Part shown: one piece after another, positions 16,839 through 19,343 of the stretch
Numbering within the stretch: position 1 is the stretch's first letter
Layout: every line of letters starts with the position of its first letter
Position numbers and translations under genes: made by a program
Source: Candidatus Zixiibacteriota bacterium
GTDB lineage: Bacteria; RBG-13-66-14; B26-G2; WVWN01
Direction of reading: 5' to 3'
DNA length: 19,343 bases
Assembly (NCBI GenBank): GCA_030613505.1
Contig: JAUWLW010000047.1
Span: 1-19,343 of the forward strand
Notes under the pieces: model-generated
The model's input: only the letters and a program-made list of their open reading frames with translations
Told to the model about the DNA's origin: nothing
Database searches by the model: none

Positions 16839-16863
16839 GGCGCGGCTCGGCTCGTAAAAATTA

Positions 16864-16883
16864 GGCCCGGCTCGAGCCGGGCC
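16864..16883. terminator. Bidirectional intrinsic terminator between the MATE and radical SAM genes
   Basis: The 20-nt perfect inverted repeat GGCCCGGCTCGAGCCGGGCC folds into an 8-bp stem with a TCGA loop. It is followed by TTTTA on the plus strand and by TAATTTTT on the minus strand, so it can end transcripts arriving from both convergent genes. Confidence 0.9.
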
Positions 16884-16907
16884 TTTTACGTCGTAGTTTT
16901 CGTAACG

Positions 16908-17978
16908 CTAACGCAACGGCCGCCGGAAGACCTCTTTCGCGGCCCGCGCCACGCGACAGTGTTCCTGCGAGGCCTTCCTTATGTCCCCGTCCTCCAACAG
17001 CGAAAACGCCGGGCAGCGGAAGCAGTACCGGTCGAGCTCGCAATGGGCGCATTCCTCGGCAGTCTCCTCCGAGAGGGCGCGGACCCGCTCGGCCTCCTCG
17101 CCGCGCCATATCTCGGCGAACGGCTTTTCGCGCACGTTTCCCAAATCGAACGGCAGCGATACGCAAGGCCAAACCGTCCCGTAGGGGTCGATGGAGCAGT
17201 TATTGAAACCTGCCATACAGCTTAACGCCCGGCCGTTGTAGCGAACCGGCGTCGATATCTCCTCGTCACACGCGTCGCCGTCGCCGGGCGCCGGGGCCAC
17301 CCACTCGTTGACGGCTCGGAAGTATTCCAGGAGTTGCTCGTCGCTCATCCGGAACCGTAGCGGCTCCCTTCCGCCGTCGTTCGTGACCGAGATGTACGGC
17401 GAGTAGCGGAAGTCGGCGCCGAAGGACTTGGCGAGGTCGTGCAGGGCCCTAAACTCATGGTAGTTGAAGTTCGTGACGTTCATTTTAATTACGACGTTGG
17501 TGCCGAGTTCGATCAGGCGGCGGGCCGCGGCCGTGGCTTTGTGCCAGGTCCCCTCCCGCCCCACGAAGCGGTCGTGGAGCTCGGGCGTGGCGGCGTGAAC
17601 CGATATCTCGACCGCGATGGGGTGGAGGGAGGCGATATCGGCGGCCAGGTTCTCGTCGAGCAACGTGCCGCCGGTGAAGATGCGGACGGCGAAGTGTCGC
17701 GCGCGGGCCGCCGCCAGGATGTCGACGACGTCGGGCCGATAGAGCGGTTCGCCGCCGGACAACGTCAGAAAAAGCGTACCCGCCGCCGCGAGCTGGTCGA
17801 AGAGCGACGCGTATTCGGCCGGCGTAAGCTCCTCGCCGCCGGGCCGGGGGTCGGTCGCGAAACAGTGCCCGCACTCGAGCGGGCACCGATACGTCAGGTT
17901 GCACATAACGGCGACCGGGATCCGGTCGGCGGCCGCGGCGTAGATCAATTTCTGGTATAGGCTCTCTTTTTCGTCCAC
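16908..17978 (-). CDS. Radical SAM/SPASM domain protein, probable peptide maturase
   Basis: This 356-residue protein has the CxxxCxxC cluster motif at C32, C36, C39 (CPLECGHC), the SGGEPL motif at 74-79 and a C-terminal SPASM domain with C254, C261, C272 (after DPYGTVWPC), C310, C313, C319, C322 and C341 for auxiliary Fe-S clusters. The opening (SLYQKL...IPVAVMCNLTYRC) is typical of RiPP maturases such as PqqE-like and thioether-forming enzymes. These reductively cleave S-adenosylmethionine and crosslink or otherwise modify a precursor peptide. The C310-C341 spacing includes CX2CX5CX2C, a little tighter than the common CX2CX5CX3C. Start is GTG with no Shine-Dalgarno. It lies 54 nt after the PqqD-like gene, past a terminator-like structure. 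The exact modification is unknown. Confidence 0.9.
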   Translation of the reverse strand: MDEKESLYQKLIYAAAADRIPVAVMCNLTYRCPLECGHCFATDPRPGGEELTPAEYASLFDQLAAAGTLFLTLSGGEPLYRPDVVDILAAARARHFAVRIFTGGTLLDENLAADIASLHPIAVEISVHAATPELHDRFVGREGTWHKATAAARRLIELGTNVVIKMNVTNFNYHEFRALHDLAKSFGADFRYSPYISVTNDGGREPLRFRMSDEQLLEYFRAVNEWVAPAPGDGDACDEEISTPVRYNGRALSCMAGFNNCSIDPYGTVWPCVSLPFDLGNVREKPFAEIWRGEEAERVRALSEETAEECAHCELDRYCFRCPAFSLLEDGDIRKASQEHCRVARAAKEVFRRPLR

Positions 17979-17983
17979 GGCAG

Positions 17984-18029
17984 AAAAAATGCCGACGGCC
18001 TCCGCCCTCGGCTCCTTCGGGAGCGGCGG
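17984..18029 (-). promoter_or_regulatory. Attenuator-like structure between the PqqD-like and radical SAM genes
   Basis: On the minus strand a hairpin (arms GCCGA at 18012-18008 and TCGGC at 17995-17991, with an inner 3-bp GGC/GCC stem and GGAG loop) is followed at once by A and six T (17990-17984). That is the form of an intrinsic terminator. Just upstream, CCGCC+GCTCC and GGAGC...GGCGG (18029-18002) can form a competing stem capped by CGAA that uses the same bases. The two folds exclude each other. It would allow partial read-through into the radical SAM gene. Confidence 0.45.
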
Positions 18030-18032
18030 CCG

Positions 18033-18302
18033 CTAGCCGTCGTCCCGCGTAACTATTCCCTTGGCCTCCAGCTCCGCCAGGAACGAGGCGAGGTCGGCCT
18101 CGAGCTCGGCCGCCGGAGCGTCGTACTCGTCCCGCAGTACGGTTAGGATTTCGTCTTCGGGTTTGCCCTGGTCGAGGAGGTCGAAGATCCGGACCCCCGC
18201 GCCTTTCACGTTGTGAAGGGTGCTGTCACTCGTCGTCACGACAAAATACTCGTCGCCGATTTTGCGATAGGCGATTTCTTTTTTCTTCAACACGTAGGTC
18301 AT
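18033..18302 (-). CDS. PqqD-like protein (RiPP recognition element)
   Basis: The 89-residue protein matches the PqqD fold: an N-terminal beta-strand region (IAYRKIGDEYFVVTTSDSTLHNV) and a helical winged-helix part with the family pattern GAGVRIFDLLDQGKPEDEI and a terminal amphipathic helix ending LEAKGIV. PqqD-type domains bind the leader of a precursor peptide and hand it to the modifying enzyme, here presumably the radical SAM protein 54 nt downstream. The ATG at 18302-18300 gives the conserved start although its Shine-Dalgarno is weak (AGGTGGGG about 13 nt upstream). Its TAG stop is in the same frame as the radical SAM gene, but the intervening 18 codons are not protein-like. Confidence 0.88.
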   Translation of the reverse strand: MTYVLKKKEIAYRKIGDEYFVVTTSDSTLHNVKGAGVRIFDLLDQGKPEDEILTVLRDEYDAPAAELEADLASFLAELEAKGIVTRDDG

Positions 18303-18587
18303 AGGTCGTTCGTCGCCCCACCTATTATATTACGAGGAGGGAACGGGGGGCCAACCCGGTTCGGGACGTGCGGCGTTTTGAATTCGCTACCTACGGAGGG
18401 TTTACGGTGCTGCTTCTTCACTTATTTCTTCCTCGGCATAGGCGTTGGTTCGCTATGGCCGGGTTTTCTCTAACGCCAAGGTCGGACTACCGACATGTAT
18501 AAGGGACGTAGGCCCTGGTGCAATTTAAAGCGTCGCCTTCGTTTTACGATTCTTCGCTGTGGCTCGGCCGCGGCGGTACCGCGGAGA
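18303..18587. other. 285-bp spacer between the Cys-rich peptide and PqqD-like genes
   Basis: I read this gap on both strands. On the minus strand the only ATGs open frames of 5-8 codons, so no second precursor peptide is seen. A small hairpin GTCGG-loop-CCGAC lies at 18481-18494 with no T-run. A possible promoter for the PqqD-like gene sits at its left end. Otherwise I see nothing that explains its length. Confidence 0.6.
18324..18354 (-). promoter_or_regulatory. Possible promoter of the PqqD-like and radical SAM genes
   Basis: On the minus strand a perfect TATAAT (18329-18324) lies 19 nt after TTGGCC (18354-18349). The spacer is longer than the preferred 17 nt and the -35 is only moderate, so this is tentative. 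Transcription would begin near 18317, 15 nt before the ATG. Confidence 0.35.
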
Positions 18588-18782
18588 TTAGGAACGCATT
18601 ACGGGATTGATCGGGATGGAACCGCAAAATACGTCTTTTACCTTCCACGGCTTATAGCAACCTTCGTACGCTATCTCGGAGGCGCATATCCCGGGGCATT
18701 CTTTCATAACGTCACAAGCCTGCGACGCCAGCGAGAATACGCGTTCGCTCGCTACATACGGTTTTTCGTATCTACGCTTCAT
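18588..18782 (-). CDS. 64-residue cysteine-rich peptide, candidate RiPP precursor
   Basis: The small protein begins MKRRYEKPYVASERVFSL, a leader-like amphipathic/basic start, followed by a Cys-bearing core with C23, C29, C33, C42 and C53 and ending in PVMRS (C-terminal Ser64). The YEKP-x-V-x-S-E-x-V-F opening resembles short, poorly annotated bacterial peptides I have seen near peptide-modifying enzymes, but I cannot name a family. AAAGGAAGGG (18796-18787) lies 4 nt before the ATG, and the start overlaps the end of the kinase gene by 11 nt, so it is very likely translated. The core has no LanM- or lasso-type signature. Cysteines are the expected thioether donors for SPASM maturases, hence the precursor call. 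No double-Gly leader cleavage site is seen. A structural Cys-rich or metal-binding peptide is the alternative. Confidence 0.7.
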   Translation of the reverse strand: MKRRYEKPYVASERVFSLASQACDVMKECPGICASEIAYEGCYKPWKVKDVFCGSIPINPVMRS

Positions 18783-19343
18783 CGTACCCTTCCTTTATTA
18801 ACAACTTGTCTTTAAGTATTTTGCCGAATCCTTCGCGGGTGATTTTCGCTTCCAGCGGAACGGTAACGGCGAATGCGCTCGCGCGCTGCGCCAAGTCCGC
18901 GACGCGTTCGAAGGCCAGCCCCCTAAATCCCGCGCCCGCCCCTTCCGGAAAGAAGACGTTGGGCCAAAGCTCGCGCGCCGCGTCCGCCGCCTCGAGAGGC
19001 GCGGCCGCGAACTCCCGGCCCGGGCGGTGGAAAGTTAAAATTCGTAACAGGCCGCCGCCGGCGTTGACCGGCTCTACGCCGGTCCCGCGGAAAGGCAGCG
19101 CCCACGCCCGGCCGTCGCTGGCGACGACGTTCATTTCGTCGGAATAGACCGTAAAGCTTTCCCCGAGCATCCGGGCGAGCGTCGATTTTCCGCTATCGCT
19201 CTCGCCGCAGGATACTATCGCGTCGTCCCCCCGGGCGAAAGCGACCGAGTGTAACACCAACCCTCCCCGACGGTAACTCTCCAACAGGAATACCTGGCGT
19301 AAAAACGTTTCGAAGTACGGGCCGCTCCGGGGCGTTAGTAGAA
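18772..19343 (-). CDS. HprK-like P-loop kinase, N-terminus beyond the window edge
   Basis: The frame is open from its TAG at 18774-18772 to the right edge with no stop (189 residues visible), so the true start is outside; the TTG at 19284 is internal. Features are LVLHSVAFARGDDAIV, then Walker A GESDSGKST, then a YSDEMNVV segment where HPr kinase-like proteins carry SDD/SDE, followed by PFRGTG and a helical C-terminus. These match the shortened HprK-related kinases found in peptide natural-product loci, not the full phosphotransferase-system HprK/P. In paeninodin-type lasso clusters such a kinase phosphorylates the C-terminal Ser of the precursor. Here the next gene encodes a Cys-rich peptide that ends in Ser. 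Target and function are inferred from position. Confidence 0.75.
   Translation of the reverse strand, partial: LLTPRSGPYFETFLRQVFLLESYRRGGLVLHSVAFARGDDAIVSCGESDSGKSTLARMLGESFTVYSDEMNVVASDGRAWALPFRGTGVEPVNAGGGLLRILTFHRPGREFAAAPLEAADAARELWPNVFFPEGAGAGFRGLAFERVADLAQRASAFAVTVPLEAKITREGFGKILKDKLLIKEGYDEA

Follow-up and report, generated by a model that had tools for sequence, protein, structure and literature searches.

What product is made by an operon in which an HprK-like kinase and a Cys-rich peptide accompany a PqqD-family protein and a radical SAM/SPASM enzyme? The window, the whole 19,343-nucleotide stretch of DNA analysed here, is contig C99 of a 2.86 Mb assembly (G000, 93% complete). The genome belongs to the phylum of Candidatus Coatesbacteria, an assignment based on the match of a relative (G003) to CP070755.1, Candidatus Coatesbacteria bin3 (L024). 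The original prediction proposed four same-strand genes at 16908-19343: a likely precursor with five Cys, a PqqD protein paired with a SPASM maturase, and an HprK-like P-loop kinase, with no lasso cyclase in view. All four are present on the minus strand at the proposed positions (Table 1), and no lasso cyclase was recognised in the operon or the window. We conclude that the locus is very probably a RiPP operon, and we consider it likely that the mechanism proposed below holds as a whole, C-terminal phosphorylation included.

The window contig ends inside the kinase gene. Contig comparison revealed that C99 ends in the same 141 bases with which contig C19 begins, and the gene order across this join is also seen in the relatives G004 and G005; the two contigs were therefore treated as neighbours, and C19 completes the kinase to 276 aa. 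The rightward extension, proposed earlier as a search for a transporter or protease, added the gene of a secreted repeat protein, and no transporter or leader protease was found in the operon. Transcription runs from the secreted repeat protein through the HprK-like kinase, the peptide, PqqD and the radical SAM/SPASM enzyme to a hairpin. The stop codon of the secreted-protein gene overlaps the kinase ATG (ATGA), the kinase and peptide genes share an 11-nt overlap, and the three genes are translationally coupled. This coupled upstream gene and the C-terminal residue of the peptide are additions to the original prediction.

Table 1. Features of the operon; positions are those of the window unless contig C19 (L004) is named.
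Feature	Position	Strand	Evidence or remark
Intrinsic terminator-like hairpin AGGCCCGGCTCGAGCCGGGCCT + AATTTTT	16863..16884	-	closes operon
Putative radical SAM/SPASM peptide maturase	16908..17978	-	PF04055 3.5e-24, PF13186 9.5e-15
PqqD-family protein, predicted RiPP recognition element	18033..18302	-	PF05402 7.8e-13
Gap between peptide and PqqD genes, 285 nt	18303..18587	-	ORF reading, RNA fold
Predicted precursor peptide MKRRYEKPYVASERVFSLASQACDVMKECPGICASEIAYEGCYKPWKVKDVFCGSIPINPVMRS, 64 aa	18588..18782	-	ORF and homologues
HprK-like kinase, C-terminal catalytic part	18772..19343	-	motifs, fold model of homologue
HprK-like kinase, N-terminal part	contig C19 (L004), up to position 400	-	
Secreted repeat protein	L004:400-1224	-	gene order, coupling

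An Rfam scan of the whole window gave no match. The gap between the peptide and PqqD genes has an ordinary RNA fold (z 0.25) and holds no recognisable second peptide. A MATE-family transporter gene (window:15483-16838) lies on the opposite strand; it was left out of the operon because it is convergent with it and adjacent in this genus only.

The 64-residue peptide contains five Cys and ends in ...PVMRS, with Ser64 at its C-terminus. It has no Pfam or NCBIfam match, and the precursor peptides altogether are recognised by no model of either database. A peptide search found homologues in 7 of the 14 phylum genomes, the seven of the window's class (E 5e-42 to 0.07), and pN/pS, uncorrected for saturation, is below 1 in 10/10 within-genus pairs (0.20-0.69). 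Together with a ribosome-binding site (GGAAGGG) upstream and the overlap with the kinase gene, these results indicate that the peptide is encoded by a real gene. Two peptide genes occur as tandem copies in G005, G003 and G001, the second lying between the first and the PqqD gene in G005 and G003. Among the homologues the leader is conserved and the core variable, with core sequence and length differing widely between families; the locus thus has the small precursor with conserved leader and variable core, beside modifying enzymes, that is expected of a RiPP locus. The YxxP leader of the window peptide reads YEKPYV. The published lasso RRE motif [YW]xxPx[LVIAFY] (PMC13381572) fits 56 of 61 peptides as well as the window leader, so that a predicted RRE domain and a matching leader motif occur side by side. 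The first Cys follows the YxxP proline by 9-17 residues in all peptides but two.

The radical SAM enzyme contains both the CX3CX2C motif (C32/C36/C39) and the SPASM cysteine set of such maturases (C254, C272, C310, C313, C319, C322 and C341, invariant in an alignment of 7 homologues); its start codon is uncertain, and GTG was used. PqqE, mycofactocin and NirJ-type models are among its best NCBIfam matches, none of which reaches an equivalog cut-off. The PqqD protein matches lasso PqqD models weakly. It is the only free-standing PqqD found in its genome, where a second match lies within a 601-aa frame, and a free-standing PqqD was found in 14/14 phylum genomes.

By sequence, the assignment of the kinase is weak. 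The best NCBIfam match of the partial window kinase, HprK_rel_A (7.5e-7), is far under its cut-off, and a PDB profile search with the kinase family gave a significant match to PEPCK yet many P-loop-only matches, for which reason a structure model was added. The AlphaFold2 model of a kinase from the same genus (L020; mean pLDDT 85.5), which is 69% identical to the window kinase over the window's part, matches PEPCK first and HprK next among PDB structures. This kinase superfamily has PEPCK and HprK as its classical members, and the model therefore upholds the HprK-like assignment made originally. The motifs comprise a His, the Walker A sequence GESDSGKST and SDE; across 25 kinases neither the His nor the Walker A Lys varies, one acidic residue is nearly invariant and its neighbour is Asp or Glu. 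The modelled fold and these catalytic residues are consistent with an HprK/PEPCK-type kinase. A His-Lys-Asp-Asp set is essential in the lasso kinases that phosphorylate a C-terminal Ser (review PMC9266682).

Conservation was followed in 14 genomes of the phylum, seven of the window's class and seven of a second class. In the window's class, 7/7 genomes have the genes for the peptide, PqqD and the radical SAM enzyme next to one another, and the kinase and secreted-protein genes lie beside this cassette in 6/6 genomes where the contig reaches; G006, whose contig ends ~170 bases beyond the peptide gene, is outside the kinase count. In the second class (Pfam searches on representative loci) the order is Wzz/Wzc-like protein, PF14907 nucleotidyltransferase, PqqD, radical SAM enzyme and YxxP peptide, followed in several loci by UDP-glucose dehydrogenase, with the peptide cassette lying inside an exopolysaccharide operon. 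Ser is the last residue in all seven of these peptides. The kinase is unlinked to the peptide here but present elsewhere in 6 of the 7 genomes, in the cases read beside a gene that looks Maf-like by eye. The PF14907 nucleotidyltransferase is found in 14/14 phylum genomes; in the window's class its gene follows a Wzz/Wzc-like gene in a polysaccharide operon, away from the peptide locus. The five components (peptide, radical SAM enzyme, PqqD, kinase and nucleotidyltransferase) keep reappearing within the phylum, in partly different groupings. Co-conservation, put forward originally as the check on the four-gene set, is borne out by these counts and by similar sets in other phyla, although linkage of the kinase stands in the window's class and fails in the second. 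In the Coatesbacteria genomes read, the PF14907 gene is single-copy in the polysaccharide operon (L287 = G000:C72; L265-L271). A small protein of 140-162 aa follows the peptide in several second-class genomes (L270:7946-8365, L267:6507-6974, L271:3167-3652); it has no Pfam match, looks S24/S26 peptidase-like by eye and could be a candidate leader peptidase.

To define the C-terminal residue, peptides encoded no more than 700 bases from the gene of a kinase, radical SAM enzyme or PqqD were chosen by leader motif, basic residues before the motif and Cys spacing, ignoring the C-terminus. Before hand curation, 56 of 66 ended in Ser or Thr. Curation removed five chance-ORF-like frames beside kinase-less radical SAM genes, all ending in other residues, and added twelve same-motif peptides, either overlooked by the filter or identified afterwards; two of these twelve are exceptions. 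The last residue is Ser or Thr in 66 of the 73 curated peptides (90%), compared with 11-26% at positions -2 to -15. Single-linkage clustering of the cores at 40% identity merged nearly everything, and the peptides were therefore clustered by their C-terminal 16 residues preceding the last. Among the resulting 50 clusters, which share little C-terminal sequence, 43 are entirely Ser/Thr (binomial p 5e-26 at 17% background); since the clusters are partly dependent, the comparison with adjoining positions carries more weight. Seven of the 73 peptides end in neither residue, and the kinases adjacent to them keep the motif; one such exception, from L030, ends in ..KTRF. A control set of YxxP peptides with radical SAM and PqqD genes in a kinase-free genome was not found. 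The one-residue rule predicts the site of the kinase, and this near-universal Ser/Thr independently supports the view that the peptide is phosphorylated as well as radical-SAM-modified, a combination that the original prediction had regarded as unusual. The paeninodin kinase phosphorylates a C-terminal Ser, which is extremely conserved in the precursors of clusters with such a kinase (review PMC9266682).

The radical SAM alignment was scanned against named genomes, and the kinase, PqqD, radical SAM and small YxxP peptide were located together in Nitrospirae (L021), a Methanophagales archaeon (L022), a Slackia-labelled MAG (L023), Caldilineae (L025), Omnitrophota (L026/L031/L034), Lentisphaerae (L030), Endomicrobia/Elusimicrobia (L032/L043), Thiodictyon (L040) and Acidobacteria (L037/L038). 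At phylum level, similar sets are found in Nitrospirota, Omnitrophota, Acidobacteriota, Chloroflexota and Elusimicrobiota, and also in a Methanophagales archaeon; most of these loci are from metagenome bins, whose taxon labels may be wrong. Many loci, spread over several phyla, have the kinase gene directly beside that of a peptide, PqqD or radical SAM enzyme. Counted as kinase homologues and not as cassettes, hits occur in 75/285 sampled Omnitrophota genomes (E<=1e-20), 87/297 Acidobacteriota (29%) and 19/301 Chloroflexota (both E<=1e-30); judging by the first two counts, many uncultured bacteria may carry this class.

Taken separately, the parts are already known: radical SAM with PqqD in PQQ and mycofactocin, and RRE with HprK-like kinase in paeninodin lassos and LPP. 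The paeninodin and pseudomycoidin lassos (PadeK/ThcoK/PsmK) share with the window locus a discrete PqqD-type RRE, a [YW]xxP leader and a C-terminal Ser, and the paeninodin-type HprK-like kinase has the His-Lys-acidic set seen here. In contrast to paeninodin-type clusters, this operon is not from Bacillota, lacks a macrolactam cyclase and B2 protease, and has a Cys-rich core and a SPASM enzyme instead. Pseudomycoidin has an annotated nucleotidyltransferase, PsmN, whereas the PF14907 gene lies elsewhere in this genome. LPP (Popov et al. 2026, PMC13381572) also combines an RRE, an HprK-like kinase and an NTP transferase with a YxxP leader and no lasso cyclase, but differs in having no radical SAM in its core set, a SpI peptidase, an MsbA-like exporter and the phosphate on core Ser3. 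The window locus was not placed in LPP, as peptidase and transporter are missing from the operon and the PF14907 gene is elsewhere, in a polysaccharide operon.

PqqA-PqqD-PqqE, mycofactocin, sactipeptides and ranthipeptides resemble the locus in combining a SPASM enzyme, a PqqD-type RRE and a small precursor, but the precursors are unlike in sequence; the Cys-rich core with a SPASM enzyme is a sactipeptide/ranthipeptide feature. We know of no such kinase in the PQQ, mycofactocin, sactipeptide or ranthipeptide pathways. Scores for PQQ, mycofactocin and other NCBIfam equivalogs are far under the cut-offs. The SynChlorMet cassette contains an HprK-like ScmC (TIGR04249), a PqqD homologue and SPASM radical SAM enzymes (TIGR04250/51), with two radical SAM genes as opposed to one in the window locus; scores here are far under the cut-offs (ScmC 20.1 vs 125 bits, ScmE 96.8 vs 400 bits). 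HPr-rel-A models, scored with the partial kinase, gave 28.5 vs 200 bits (TIGR04352) and 26.6 vs 35 bits (TIGR04353). That SynChlorMet models exist in NCBIfam shows that a kinase-like protein accompanying PqqD and radical SAM proteins had come to the attention of curators. The openly licensed literature searched contained no paper with HprK, radical SAM and RiPP, with HprK and exosortase, or with SynChlorMet; an earlier description is possible. Two or more radical SAM genes surround one HprK-like kinase in L035, L039, L049, L050, L167 and L171 (Omnitrophota, Nitrospira), a layout that recalls SynChlorMet, and some YxxP peptides there end in Ser/Thr.

In the mechanism that we propose, the 64-residue peptide would be the precursor, and PqqD would bind its YxxP leader and present it to the radical SAM enzyme and the kinase, a role suggested by the way published lasso and LPP RREs bind (PMC13381572). 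The SPASM enzyme would modify the Cys-rich core, most likely forming a Cys-derived thioether or other Cys-linked crosslink. The HprK-like kinase is predicted from the C-terminal Ser/Thr rule to phosphorylate the Ser64 hydroxyl, as paeninodin-type kinases do on lasso precursors; the steps may follow this order. Because lasso kinases such as that of paeninodin target the C-terminal residue, we predict that the product is a RiPP carrying both a radical-SAM modification and a C-terminal phosphate, made without a lasso cyclase. Such a product would join two modifications whose pairing was not found in the openly licensed literature searched, and a widespread, little-noticed peptide class would gain a precise modification site. 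An HprK-like kinase need not target the C-terminus, since LppK, the LPP kinase, phosphorylates the internal Ser3 (PMC13381572). It is conceivable, if improbable, that the C-terminal phosphoserine is a conjugation handle to which the PF14907 nucleotidyltransferase adds a nucleotide or sugar once the radical SAM enzyme has acted, the peptide being linked to or exported with exopolysaccharide; if true, this would make the product a cell-envelope conjugate of a ribosomal peptide and a glycan.

Among other readings, the product may be a peptide-derived redox or metal cofactor, like PQQ or mycofactocin, bound by the co-translated secreted protein, the kinase having a regulatory or activating role. 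The PqqE, mycofactocin and NirJ-type matches of the radical SAM enzyme point this way, as do the coupling of the secreted-protein gene to the kinase gene, its presence in 6/6 class loci and a vertical, single-copy retention that is more housekeeping-like than that of a patchy antimicrobial. We consider it unlikely, given that no equivalog cut-off is reached, that cores vary widely between families, unlike PqqA or MftA, and that the sets of other phyla did not show the secreted protein, save one weak match in L057. The kinase could instead act on another protein or regulate, with the C-terminal Ser/Thr serving radical SAM recognition or C-terminal processing. HPr is the classical HprK substrate, seven peptides break the rule, and second-class peptides still end in Ser where the kinase is unlinked. 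The kinase-peptide gene overlap, the adjacency of the kinase to cassette genes in several phyla and the published C-terminal Ser kinases with the same catalytic set (PMC9266682) make this quite unlikely.

That the 64-aa frame encodes a small metal-binding or regulatory protein and no RiPP precursor would suit its five Cys and the lack of a known mature product; the conserved leader and variable core, the tandem copies, the YxxP motif and the PqqD and radical SAM genes that always accompany it leave this very unlikely. A lasso peptide or degenerate lasso cluster is the least probable reading, at hardly any chance: the YxxP leader, discrete RRE and HprK-like kinase are common to paeninodin-type clusters, but neither a macrolactam cyclase nor a B2 protease was recognised beside the peptide, in the operon or in the window, and the locus has a SPASM radical SAM enzyme instead. 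The B2 protease domain PF13471 has no match in G000 and weak partial matches elsewhere in the phylum.

Within the preferred reading of a modified and phosphorylated peptide, no candidate partner other than the secreted repeat protein is seen, and, judged from gene order and coupling, this protein is probably an extracellular partner or carrier. Its model is all-beta and of low confidence (mean pLDDT 57.8), and the description 'propeller-like' therefore rests on repeats and sub-threshold Pfam matches. In the window's genus, secreted proteins seem to share a C-terminal tail resembling PTSFGKVKALYR. A DNA pattern search for GxVK[AST]L[YF]R-stop gave 79 hits in G000 and 63-74 in the congeners G004-G006, compared with 0 for a reversed-pattern control, and the tail is possibly an undescribed C-terminal sorting signal.
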